A stretch of 64,000 nucleotides of DNA. Origin: a virus. A program made the translations under genes and the position numbers. Shown piece by piece: positions 47,014-51,387 of the stretch. The stretch spans positions 91,387 to 155,386 of IMG/VR virus record IMGVR_UViG_3300017989_000003. One strand, written 5' to 3'. The notes under the pieces are model-generated. The model made no database searches. It worked only from the letters and a program-made list of their open reading frames with translations, and was not told where the DNA came from. The stretch's first letter is position 1. Every line of letters begins with the position of its first letter.

Positions 47014-50000
47014 TTACCCACAACCACCAGCACCACCACAATTTCGGCATGTTTTACATGACCCTGTTATTTCTAAGTCAGGCGACCCACAATATGGGCA
47101 TACATCCCCACTCTTTAATAGCTTTGTAGTCTTTTTGCCAACTTTAGGTGATTGATTTGGGTTTTTATTAACTATTTTGTCGTCGGTTATTTCTTTGATA
47201 TGTTGCAATGCTTCTTCGATTGTAAACTCCCTAGTGTCGTTGTCTGAGTCATCTGACACGAATTCCTGCTCTAGATAAGTGAATATGTAGTCTATAATCG
47301 ACCCAGCAAACCTTATCTTAGGATTGTTGGTAATTCCAGACGGTTCAAATCTAGTATGCCTAAACTTATCCACTAGAACTTCTAGTGGAACACCATATTG
47401 TAAGGCAATAGAGGTCAATGTAGCTATAACATCTAATAAACCGTTTATTGTAGAACCAGTTCTAGCAGCATTGATAAAAATCTCCCCTACATCTCCATTT
47501 TCGTATAAACCAATGGATAGATACGCTTCTTGCTGTCCTACTGATAGTTTATGGATTATAGCAGGTCGTGTCGCGGGCATTCTATTTCTGTTAAGTTGTT
47601 TAGGTGTATTCGGTATCACTGGCTCTTTATCGTCTGAAGTTGAGCTAGTCGATAGTGGTTGTACACCTTTTGAGCCATCTCGGTAAATAGATATGTCTTT
47701 CAATCCTAGTCTGTGAGCTTTTATGACAACATTCTCAATGTCTTCAATGGTAGCTTCGTTCGGTAAAGATACTGTTTTTGATATTGCACCTGACAAGAAT
47801 GGTTGTGTAGCCGCAAGCATCATCAAGTGTCCGTCTGACGATATATACCGTTTATTCCCTTTCGTTTTATAAGCACAATCAAATACAGCTAATGTCTCGT
47901 CATCAATGTAAGGCGCACCTTCCATGGTATCGTTATCTTCTATGTATTCGAGTATTTCTGCTATTTGTTCATCTGTGTACTCTCGGGCTTCTAACCCTTT
48001 TCGTACTATGGTAGTTGCCATCTTTAGATGACCACCGCCTGATAATTTTTTATATACCACTAATCCCATTAGTGGTTCAACTCCTGTTGATTCGAAGTCC
48101 ATTGCAAACCCAATAGTGCCTGTAGGAGCAAGTAGTGTAACTTGTGCGTTTCTTAAAGGTGGCTTTTCAGATAGTATATTACATAATTGCTGAATTTCGT
48201 CTGTGAATAACTGCTTTGGTAGTTTTTTCCATGCGTTAATATGCTGGTCTATTACTTTATAGTGTGTATCAGGGTTATAGTGTTTGTAGGGACTAAGTAT
48301 ACTAGCTATTGCTGCACTTACTGTATAAGACGTAAGAGTCATTAGCATTGTGATTGAAGACGCTATTGTCCTTCCGTTGTCAGAGTCATACGGAATGCCT
48401 AGTGACGCAAGTAAACCTCCAAGATTACCATATCCCAGTCCAATTGGGCGATAATCACGACTATTATCGGTTATTTCTTTTGTTGGGTAACCTGATAAAT
48501 TTATTAGTATGTCTTGTGTTATAGTCATAATTTTTACAGCTGCAATAAAACCTTGAACATCAAAATCTAAGTCGTCCTCTCGAAATTTCATGAGATTAAT
48601 ACTAGCTAGATTACAGGCTGAGTCATCGCAAAAAATAAATTCCCCGCAGTTGTGTACATGGATACCATTTGCCCATCCTGCTGGCTCACTTTCACCTAAA
48701 ACTGTAAAATCATAAACACACCCATTGCCTATACATTCAAATGATTTCACCTTAGTAGTGTATGGTTTACCAGATGAATTAGTAGATTCTAAAATTTTGA
48801 TTAAAGCATCAGTTTTGTACTTTTGGATAAATCCGATATGCTCTGCAAATTTTTTCAAACTTCTTACGTTAGCTATGTTTAGGTCATAACTTTCTTTACA
48901 TTCATATACTCCATTCCTAAATTCCACTTCTTTTTGTTTATTTGTTGTTATGTATGAAAATACGCCGTACAGTGTGAGTAATTTCTGAATTGTAGTACAC
49001 ACATTTCTATTAGTTGTTTTTAGTGCTACTCTTGTGTTTTCTGGAGTAGAGCCATTTGCTGAAAATAAGCCTTTTAAGAACGCGGCTATTTCTTTTTTCG
49101 AAGCTGATAGCAGTGTTTTAGGAAAAGTTCTTTGTGGGATTTTTTCTTTGTCTATGTTAAGAAAATCCCACAAATGGTTAAAATAACTTCGGTATATTAC
49201 TCTTTTTTCACAACGGTCATCTCTTTCTGTTAATAAACTAAGTAATGGGTCTTTGTTTTCGTTTAATTTTAATGACACAAAATGTATTACGTCGTCATCT
49301 TCGCCGTCCTTCGAAAAATACATTGCAGCGTATTTATGATGTTCATCTGCGTAAGTACCATCCCCGAATAAAAATCCAGCGATTGTGAAGTCAGATTCAT
49401 CTAAATCATTATTTTGGTTTATTTCGCTGTTCCAATCAGGAACATCGTCTACCACTAAAGATATTCTTCTATTAACACAATCATGAGCCGCCACATAACC
49501 ATCTTCTCCACAAAATATTTTATGGTCGCTAGTGCATTTTAATTCAAATCCGGATGTTGTTTCGAGTTTGAACACCGGTTTTACACCAGTTTTGAACACT
49601 TTAACTTTTTTTAATCCATCTGGCGTTAGTATATCCACAGTACTACCGTCTAATTCCATTATTTCTTTTATGCCGTCTCGTGTATGCAATAATGTATCAG
49701 CTGATAGACAAGGATTACTGCTTTTAATCTTAAATTTATCGGAACAGGTGTTCCAATTGTTAATATTGTCTATATAGAAATAACCTGGGTCTCCACATCT
49801 ATGGGTAGCTTTAGCTGCTTCATGCAGTAATTCTCGCGCTTTGAACGTCGGCGCTTTGTGTGCATTTAGGTCAGGACGTACAAACTTAGTGTCCCATTGA
49901 AGGTCATTTTCTACAGCGTCCATAAAATCATCTGTTATGGCAATAGACGTGTTAACATTTTGGAAAGCTACAGTGTCATATGCTTCATTTGGGTATGTAT

Positions 50001-51387
50001 TTGGGTCACCATATCCTGCGTTCATAAGAGCGACAGCTTTCTCTTCTTCGTTTGCCTTACACGTGATAAAGTCTACGATTTCTGGATGGTCTACATTTAG
50101 TATTTCCATTTTTGCTGACCTTCTGCTGTTAAAAACAGCAATACCATTTCCTGAGTATATGTCGCTAGTTTCAGACCATATTACGTAGTTATGTCCACTT
50201 TCTGGTGATTTGTCGTCAGCCGTTGGGCAGTCAACTTCCACAGAATAGACATCCATAATGCCAACTTTGCTAACTGACACTACACGGTGGTTTTCTTCTG
50301 ATACAGTTTCTACTAATTTATCCGCGTGCATTTGGGAATGTGTAGATAAAGATGTCAAGTCTTTAGCAATTAGTCTATGCAAGAGTTCTTTTCCTTTATT
50401 TCCATCGTGTAGGTTAAGAGATAAGTAGTTTTCTTTGTCCCTACTTACACTACAACTAAATAAAGAATTACCTGGTTTCAAATCACCTGCTTTACGTACT
50501 GTATTGTCAGATAATCTAACAGGATGGTCATCGGACATGTCGAATACGCCTTTATCAGTTGTTATTCTAACAACTTGTTTTTTGCCAGACTTCCACGCTC
50601 TAGCCCATTTAGCTTTATACCTACCAGCTGGTGGGTCGTAACTTAATACTATAAACTCCTCATTAGACTCAGCTAAATCTTTTACAGGAATAGCGCCTTT
50701 TGCTGTGTATACCCGCTGGTATGGAGCTAAACACTTGCCTCCAGACTTTACTATGTGAGCAATTGAGTCATATATACGCATGAATGATAGTACTCCAGAC
50801 GCTTTTCCACCTCCAGTTAAATTTTCGTCTTTTGCTCTTAGACTACTAAGGTTCTTTCCAGTGCCAGAACCCTCTTTGAAGATAAAAGCTTCTTTATTAG
50901 CTACATCCATGATACTATCCATTGTATCGTCTAGCGCTAGTATGAAACAAGCTGAGCATTGGTTAGAACTATTCTCGACACCTAGATTAAACCACACTGG
51001 TGAATTGAGCCATGCTATTTGCATAATAATTATCCACATTAGCTCATCGCGAAAAACATGTGAGTCGTCAGCATTGAAATAACCTGCTGTTACCCCATAG
51101 TCTGTTATTGTATTAACTACTCTTGCTGCTAAGTGCCGCAAAGAACTTTCTCGGTTCTCGCCTGCTCCCTTAAAAAATTTAGACGCTATAATAGTCATAG
51201 CGTTCAAACTGTAGAAATCTGGGAATTCTACATCCTTTTGTTCGAATATAGTATTGCCAGCATTGTCAATAATGTTTACATCTTCAGTAACCCAATGTAA
51301 GTGGTCTTTTTTTGCCATTACATCATGGTAAAAAGAGCTACTATTTTCTTTATAGTAGCCCTCGGTGAAAAAACGACGTATATTCAC
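47014..51387 (-). CDS. nrdJ: Adenosylcobalamin-dependent (class II) ribonucleotide reductase with two inteins
   Basis: 1457-residue precursor; about 901 residues after removal of two inteins. Reductase marks: SNQCSACFIL, NPCGEF with ACNLASINL (split by intein 2), LLAPTGTIGFAMDFESTGVE, and a C-terminal zinc ribbon (CPYCGSPDLEITGSCKTCRN and final Cys pair) typical of NrdJ. It makes deoxynucleotides with vitamin B12 coenzyme, with or without oxygen. GTG start with GGAGGT upstream. Activity requires both inteins to splice. Confidence 0.93.
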   Translation of the reverse strand: MNIRRFFTEGYYKENSSSFYHDVMAKKDHLHWVTEDVNIIDNAGNTIFEQKDVEFPDFYSLNAMTIIASKFFKGAGENRESSLRHLAARVVNTITDYGVTAGYFNADDSHVFRDELMWIIIMQIAWLNSPVWFNLGVENSSNQCSACFILALDDTMDSIMDVANKEAFIFKEGSGTGKNLSSLRAKDENLTGGGKASGVLSFMRIYDSIAHIVKSGGKCLAPYQRVYTAKGAIPVKDLAESNEEFIVLSYDPPAGRYKAKWARAWKSGKKQVVRITTDKGVFDMSDDHPVRLSDNTVRKAGDLKPGNSLFSCSVSRDKENYLSLNLHDGNKGKELLHRLIAKDLTSLSTHSQMHADKLVETVSEENHRVVSVSKVGIMDVYSVEVDCPTADDKSPESGHNYVIWSETSDIYSGNGIAVFNSRRSAKMEILNVDHPEIVDFITCKANEEEKAVALMNAGYGDPNTYPNEAYDTVAFQNVNTSIAITDDFMDAVENDLQWDTKFVRPDLNAHKAPTFKARELLHEAAKATHRCGDPGYFYIDNINNWNTCSDKFKIKSSNPCLSADTLLHTRDGIKEIMELDGSTVDILTPDGLKKVKVFKTGVKPVFKLETTSGFELKCTSDHKIFCGEDGYVAAHDCVNRRISLVVDDVPDWNSEINQNNDLDESDFTIAGFLFGDGTYADEHHKYAAMYFSKDGEDDDVIHFVSLKLNENKDPLLSLLTERDDRCEKRVIYRSYFNHLWDFLNIDKEKIPQRTFPKTLLSASKKEIAAFLKGLFSANGSTPENTRVALKTTNRNVCTTIQKLLTLYGVFSYITTNKQKEVEFRNGVYECKESYDLNIANVRSLKKFAEHIGFIQKYKTDALIKILESTNSSGKPYTTKVKSFECIGNGCVYDFTVLGESEPAGWANGIHVHNCGEFIFCDDSACNLASINLMKFREDDLDFDVQGFIAAVKIMTITQDILINLSGYPTKEITDNSRDYRPIGLGYGNLGGLLASLGIPYDSDNGRTIASSITMLMTLTSYTVSAAIASILSPYKHYNPDTHYKVIDQHINAWKKLPKQLFTDEIQQLCNILSEKPPLRNAQVTLLAPTGTIGFAMDFESTGVEPLMGLVVYKKLSGGGHLKMATTIVRKGLEAREYTDEQIAEILEYIEDNDTMEGAPYIDDETLAVFDCAYKTKGNKRYISSDGHLMMLAATQPFLSGAISKTVSLPNEATIEDIENVVIKAHRLGLKDISIYRDGSKGVQPLSTSSTSDDKEPVIPNTPKQLNRNRMPATRPAIIHKLSVGQQEAYLSIGLYENGDVGEIFINAARTGSTINGLLDVIATLTSIALQYGVPLEVLVDKFRHTRFEPSGITNNPKIRFAGSIIDYIFTYLEQEFVSDDSDNDTREFTIEEALQHIKEITDDKIVNKNPNQSPKVGKKTTKLLKSGDVCPYCGSPDLEITGSCKTCRNCGGAGGCG
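48649..49710 (-). other. Intein 2 in NrdJ, with LAGLIDADG homing endonuclease
   Basis: Residues 560-913 of the precursor (354 residues), in SSNP / CGEF, a conserved substrate-site motif. Starts CLSADTLLHT and ends GIHVHN before Cys914. Two LAGLIDADG-type segments, FTIAGFLFGDGTY and IAAFLKGLFSANGS, mark a probable homing endonuclease. All four splicing positions (Cys1, TSDH block B, His-Asn end, Cys+1) look intact. Confidence 0.9.
50128..50733 (-). other. Intein 1 in NrdJ, mini-intein
   Basis: Residues 219-420 of the precursor (202 residues), between SGGK and SRRSAKM. Starts CLAPYQRVYTAKGAIPVKDL, block B SDDHP, end GIAVFN then Ser421. No endonuclease domain. Phe replaces the usual penultimate His, so splicing may be slower or use another route. 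Confidence 0.85.

Follow-up and report, generated by a model that had tools for sequence, protein, structure and literature searches.

A 64,000-nucleotide stretch of viral DNA (hereafter the window; positions 91,387 to 155,386 of the 155,386-base IMG/VR virus record IMGVR_UViG_3300017989_000003) raises the question of what two long inserts are doing inside a ribonucleotide reductase (RNR) gene, and whether an odd residue at the end of one of them bears on control of the enzyme. The gene, nrdJ, encodes a class II B12-dependent RNR. An earlier note, made from the letters alone, had read the inserts as a pair of different inteins placed in conserved motifs of the reductase, a mini-intein with Phe in place of the penultimate His and a larger, standard LAGLIDADG intein, and had suggested a timed or condition-dependent supply of deoxynucleoside triphosphates (dNTPs). 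The analysis indicates that this is very probably a phage NrdJ with two inteins, of which intein 1 (site A) is a decayed member of an HNH family whose penultimate residue is usually Phe with His181 assisting, and intein 2 (site B) belongs to a LAGLIDADG lineage at the active-site Cys.

The gene begins with GTG behind a good ribosome site and runs as a single open frame of 1457 codons. Its exteins match the class II B12-dependent reductases (PRK06556, E 1.8e-294; PF02867, E 2e-110; Pfam/NCBIfam), and have the NPCGE active site and the C-terminal Cys pair of the B12-dependent RNR family. The spliced extein of 901 amino acids (aa) shows no gap at either joint when aligned to the inteinless NrdJs of the uncultured phage LR745208, Geobacillus virus E3 and Bradyrhizobium phage BDU-MI-1, and both inserts are missing from almost every one of 158 other viral and bacterial NrdJs examined. 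Sequence comparison establishes the identity of the inserts and their boundaries, which coincide exactly with those first proposed (residues 219-420, 50733..50128, and 560-913, 49710..48649); homologs lack the segments, whereas their presence there as part of the reductase is what the earlier note had named as fatal to its claim.

Both inteins are class-1, unrelated to each other, and lie within the active machinery of the enzyme. The site A joint KSGGK/SRR aligns with K202-Q203-G-S-R-R-R208 of Thermotoga maritima NrdJ (1xje), which is loop 2, and the site B joint SNP/CGE aligns with N320-P/C322-G-E324 of the same protein. C322 is the thiyl-radical Cys in class II RNR, which makes the +1 nucleophile of intein 2 also the radical cysteine of the reductase. 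Through loop 2 the effector signal reaches the active site, and Gln203 as well as residue 208 is named in this role (PMC4728125); the equivalent radical Cys in the Escherichia coli reductase is Cys439. The placement in conserved motifs is thus confirmed, with site A inside the specificity loop 2 and site B immediately ahead of the thiyl-radical Cys. The claim that the reductase is inactive before splicing is strongly indicated too, because with loop 2 split and Asn-Pro separated from the thiyl Cys the precursor can hardly be active.

Intein 1 matches the profile intein_Nterm (E 1.5e-6) and, weakly, Intein_splicing (E 6e-4, under the Pfam cut-off). Its AlphaFold model, built with relatives (predicted local distance difference test 81, predicted template modelling score 0.79), was used in Foldseek, where the DnaX mini-intein was the best match (E 6.5e-8), followed by DnaB, DnaE, RecA and NrdJ-1; a probability of 1.00 for the DnaX and DnaB inteins points to a HINT fold. 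The nucleophile at position 1 is C1, seen in 10 of the 10 family members with the N-terminus covered, and the C-terminal Asn202 is followed by Ser+1, as in class-1 inteins. Block B (TxxH) keeps His70 and has Ser67 in place of Thr (S or T in the family), and in block F position F:4 is Ser164 (D or S in the family) and the invariant His181 of GHN is spaced further from the C-terminus. Besides the nucleophiles, two cysteines are conserved, C94 (10/10 copies covering the position) and C169 (11/11). The penultimate His, usual and non-obligatory in class-1 inteins, is indeed replaced by Phe201 (TTT, 50133-50131). That the two inserts could be extra reductase domains that are never removed agrees with the open frame and with nothing further, and is hardly conceivable against the intein blocks and HINT fold, the positions within loop 2 and beside the thiyl Cys, and the exact absence of both segments in homologs.

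Single-sequence scans of viral contigs with either intein or extein gave no matches; the site-A family was recovered by the block-F DNA pattern GHN[FY]VIW plus an alignment scan. Ten independent phage inteins, 46-64% identical, were found at site A, between GG[KTA] and [TS]RR. The motif GHN[FY]VIW is conserved through the family, and C1, the block-B Asp-His, Cys94, Cys169, His181, Trp186 and the terminal Asn are kept in every member covering them. Over the eleven inteins including that of the window, the penultimate residue is Phe (six), Ser (three), Ala (one) or His (one). A private mutation of the window phage is ruled out as the origin of Phe201, Phe being the commonest residue in the family. 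Among 195 genomes sampled from one bacterial phylum, the only match was a distant intein in a different protein, and plasmids yielded none, bacterial site-A carriers being neither found nor excluded; a genome scan for NrdJ, using a pattern across site B, returned mostly inteinless NrdJs.

Inteins without a penultimate His are on record (Chen 2000, as cited in PMC5050341), and a block-F His further upstream is thought to substitute where it is absent (PMC5050341). Since the F:13 residue in inteins is most often His (PMC4031507), an upstream block-F His has been proposed as the substitute and His181 is invariant, His181 is the best candidate in intein 1, where it most likely assists the cyclisation of Asn202 in place of the penultimate His. 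A published phage intein with a native Gly spliced well, and a Gly-to-His change slowed its splicing with accumulation of precursor (PMC5050341), so the effect of a Phe-to-His change in intein 1 could go either way.

The residue at this position could also be taken as a sign that both inteins, chiefly the Phe-bearing one, gate NrdJ and make dNTP supply timed or condition-responsive. Each insert interrupts a catalytic loop, which must leave the precursor inactive, the conserved C94 and C169 could in principle sense the redox state, and the penultimate residue changes precursor build-up in a phage recombination directionality factor (RDF) intein (PMC5050341). However, Phe is the norm of the site-A family, with Ser, Ala and His also used, which does not suggest local tuning, and the lateral scatter of the inteins together with mostly inteinless NrdJ relatives indicates that the enzyme needs no intein for control. 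Gating is therefore unlikely, and the suggestions that Phe is a special, possibly regulatory departure (the block-F His can plausibly stand in for the penultimate His) and that dNTP supply is timed or condition-dependent are unsupported. It is similarly improbable that the block-F His and an aromatic penultimate residue at site A complete C-terminal cleavage, with C94 and C169 making the splicing of the reductase responsive to thiol redox.

The ancestry of intein 1 is visible in its relatives. Six full-size site-A members (338-344 aa) contain an HNH domain, not LAGLIDADG; HNH_3 is above the Pfam cut-off in four of them (best E 4.8e-10), and HNH was assigned to the sixth, L199, from alignment alone. 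Intein 1 has no HNH domain within its HINT domain, only flanking remnants: both HNH edges (LLHRLIAKDL and THSQMH..) are retained, and the metal-binding HH core and ~100 C-terminal aa are deleted. The inteins of L179 and L180 are shortened further, through other deletions. In a tree built from 164 exteins, eleven changes are required for the eleven site-A carriers, no two of which are adjacent, and intein identity exceeds extein-core identity in 43 of 45 pairs (means 56% vs 46%) with a weak correlation (r = 0.17). For the family, scatter and decay established from sequence, lateral spread by homing with subsequent decay offers the simplest explanation; an ancient intein lost many times over is a formal possibility. 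The intein 1 family would have moved among divergent phage NrdJ genes via an HNH homing endonuclease, homing being presumably the activity of the HNH-bearing relatives, and the window copy would then have lost its nuclease core, being retained because a working enzyme needs exact splicing or exact deletion. In coding composition (GC content 0.34-0.40), the difference between intein and extein is too small for dating either insertion.

Decay of this kind could have gone further, leaving intein 1 splicing-dead and the phage NrdJ a decaying, inactive gene, as the lost penultimate His, Ser at F:4, Ser in block B and the deleted nuclease core might suggest. This is very unlikely, given that no nucleophile is lost and the His of both block B and block F remains, that the extein keeps its catalytic residues and the 1457-codon frame is open, and that the ten relatives in other phages have similar substitutions and frames likewise open. 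The reading preferred here remains that of two working inteins, each of which would excise itself after translation to give the 901-aa enzyme, joined ...KSGGK-SRR... and ...SNP-CGE...

Several points weigh against this reading. The splicing of NrdJ inteins 1 and 2 is predicted from their residues, and three assisting positions of intein 1 differ from the class-1 consensus (block-B Thr to Ser, F:4 Asp to Ser, penultimate His to Phe), so its splicing could be slow or incomplete. Over the 95 extein columns around site A, extein identity is 52% against 56% for the intein, which exceeds the extein in just 26 of the 45 pairs; with near-site columns almost as conserved as the intein, the rate argument is weaker, and the scatter on the tree is unaffected. 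The window record is also a metagenomic contig.

Intein 2 matches LAGLIDADG_3 (E 2.7e-12), Intein_splicing (5.5e-9) and intein_Nterm (1.5e-8). The description of this larger intein as standard stands for its nucleophiles and block B (C1, T60-S-D-H63, H353-N354/C, and the F:4 Asp is present), and fails for block F, where the F:13 His is absent, and for the LAGLIDADG motifs, which do not hold two catalytic acids, Asn219 standing at the second catalytic Asp. Because of this Asn the nuclease activity of intein 2 is uncertain. The same Asn (SANG; ..FLRGLYSANGSV..) recurs, in a motif otherwise well kept, in roughly a dozen diverged RNR inteins of phages at the NP/C site, and for that reason a simply dead nuclease was dropped as an explanation; others at this site have Asp in the second motif. 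As the Asn is shared and the whole motif is kept, the nuclease of intein 2 may be a variant that still works, a nickase or an activity lost long ago, and altered catalysis is possible. Relatives at the identical NP/C position were found in Nodularia phages, Moorella phage MTATph1 and many metagenomic phages, and intein 2 belongs to this lineage of phage RNR inteins inserted at the active-site Cys.

Among known systems, the Nodularia phage RnR intein (MK605246, Ravarandavirus) occupies the same NP/CGE site as intein 2, with 33% identity over 347 aa (E 1e-41, local comparison). Like intein 2, this intein and that of Moorella phage MTATph1 have the second-motif Asn and a Cys+1 that is the catalytic Cys; unlike the window, both have the block-F His and one intein only, and the Nodularia reductase backbone is different. 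The SP-beta BnrdE intein (NC_001884) is also a phage RNR intein, weakly similar to intein 2 (24%, E 1e-5), in a class Ib reductase. The NrdJ-1 metagenomic split intein (PDB 8ubs) shares with intein 1 the NrdJ host gene and a matched HINT fold, whereas it is split and other inteins match intein 1 better; its insertion site, which we take to be NPC/SE, would be one residue from site B. Mycobacteriophage class-1 inteins (e.g., Bethlehem RDF, Gly) resemble intein 1 in lacking the penultimate His, with the block-F His as proposed substitute, and differ in having Gly, Lys or Ser instead of mostly Phe, in other host genes and without a shared insertion site (PMC5050341). HNH inteins with a penultimate Lys were observed in a huge-phage NrdJ (..VKN/CGE) and a cyanophage deoxycytidine triphosphate deaminase (..VKN/CGI) (L207, L208).

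Stacked inteins are a recurring arrangement in phage NrdJ. Another intein at or beside site B is present in 6 of the 10 other site-A carriers, in several unrelated forms (LAGLIDADG, HNH, mini), and the NrdJs of L192 and L198 (IMG/VR contigs 3300020057_000035 and 3300042731_011014) have three inteins each, at the SACF cysteine, loop 2 and NP/C. Several inteins in a single RNR were known before from Pyrococcus abyssi, where RIR1, an archaeal chromosomal gene unlike that of the window, has three (Kerrigan 2009, as cited in PMC5050341), and from Campylobacter phage nrdA (PMC3653736). Two of the six site-B inteins, those of L195 (..LIKQ/CGEF) and L196 (..LISQ/CSEF), end in Gln, not Asn, before the catalytic Cys. 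The NrdJ of L074 has an intein at another conserved site (SGAISK/C...HN/TCNV).

Outside the window (record 64789-66021; L001:1369-2601), the large terminase of the same phage has a 411-aa intein (C1 ... Thr-Ser-Asn/Ser+1), and inteinless terminases align over its joint. Inside this intein, in another reading frame, is an HNH endonuclease gene of 306 codons (L001:1595-2515; HNH_5, E 1.7e-14), which has an AGAGGG ribosome site to itself. Over the 306 nested codons the intein frame contains 0 stops, while permutation of synonymous codons of the endonuclease gave a mean of 18, with 0 of 5000 trials open, and a second record contains an identical 3,216-base stretch. This is apparently a dual-coding homing gene within an intein; no described case of the kind turned up in the literature searched, and the nested gene looks more unusual than the NrdJ finding.

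Table 1. Features of the nrdJ locus (positions in the window) and residue states among related inteins
Feature	Position	Strand	Description	Basis
nrdJ open reading frame	47014..51387	minus	class II B12-dependent RNR; 1457-aa precursor, 901 aa once spliced	
N-extein	50734..51387	minus	218 aa, last residues ...KSGGK	inteinless-homolog alignment
Intein 1 (site A)	50128..50733	minus	202 aa, GGK/C1...VF201-N202/Ser+1 (SRR); HINT fold (predicted), decayed HNH-family member	profiles, homologs, model
HNH endonuclease module remnant	50308..50424	minus	LSLNLHDGNKGKELLHRLIAKDLTS..LSTHSQMHADKLVE, in intein 1	alignment with full-size HNH_3 members
His181	50191..50193	minus	block-F (F:13-type) His, kept in 11/11 family members; proposed stand-in for penultimate His	alignment; role from PMC4031507, PMC5050341
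Phe201	50131..50133	minus	penultimate residue of intein 1, codon TTT	read from sequence
Middle extein	49711..50127	minus	139 aa, SRRSAK...SSNP	inteinless-homolog alignment
Intein 2 (site B)	48649..49710	minus	354 aa, SNP/C1...VH353-N354/Cys+1 (CGE); LAGLIDADG type	profiles, homologs
Asp117	49360..49362	minus	first LAGLIDADG motif AGFLFGDG, catalytic Asp retained	alignment
Asn219	49054..49056	minus	second LAGLIDADG motif KGLFSANG, Asn for catalytic Asp	alignment
C-extein	47014..48648	minus	545 aa with stop codon; TSCPD domain; C-terminal CxxC zinc-ribbon-like tail	profile matches
Penultimate Phe, site A			window, L172, L176, L178, L187, L189	site-A family alignment
Penultimate Ser, site A			L179, L181/L199, L184/L076	site-A family alignment
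Penultimate Ala; penultimate His, site A			L183; L180	site-A family alignment
Second-motif Asn, NP/C site			L210, L212, L213, L215-L220, L251	alignment

The gain from this locus is a family: a lineage of inteins in loop 2 of phage NrdJ, of HNH origin, in which the penultimate His is replaced, mostly by Phe. One odd residue becomes a family pattern, with His rare at a position treated as near-universal. The natural Phe, Ser, Ala and His variants at one site of one host protein form a comparative set for His-less inteins, and compact splicing domains could be drawn from the site-A family. The locus and its relatives further document how a homing intein decays and how two or three inteins have repeatedly become stacked in catalytic loops of a single phage enzyme.

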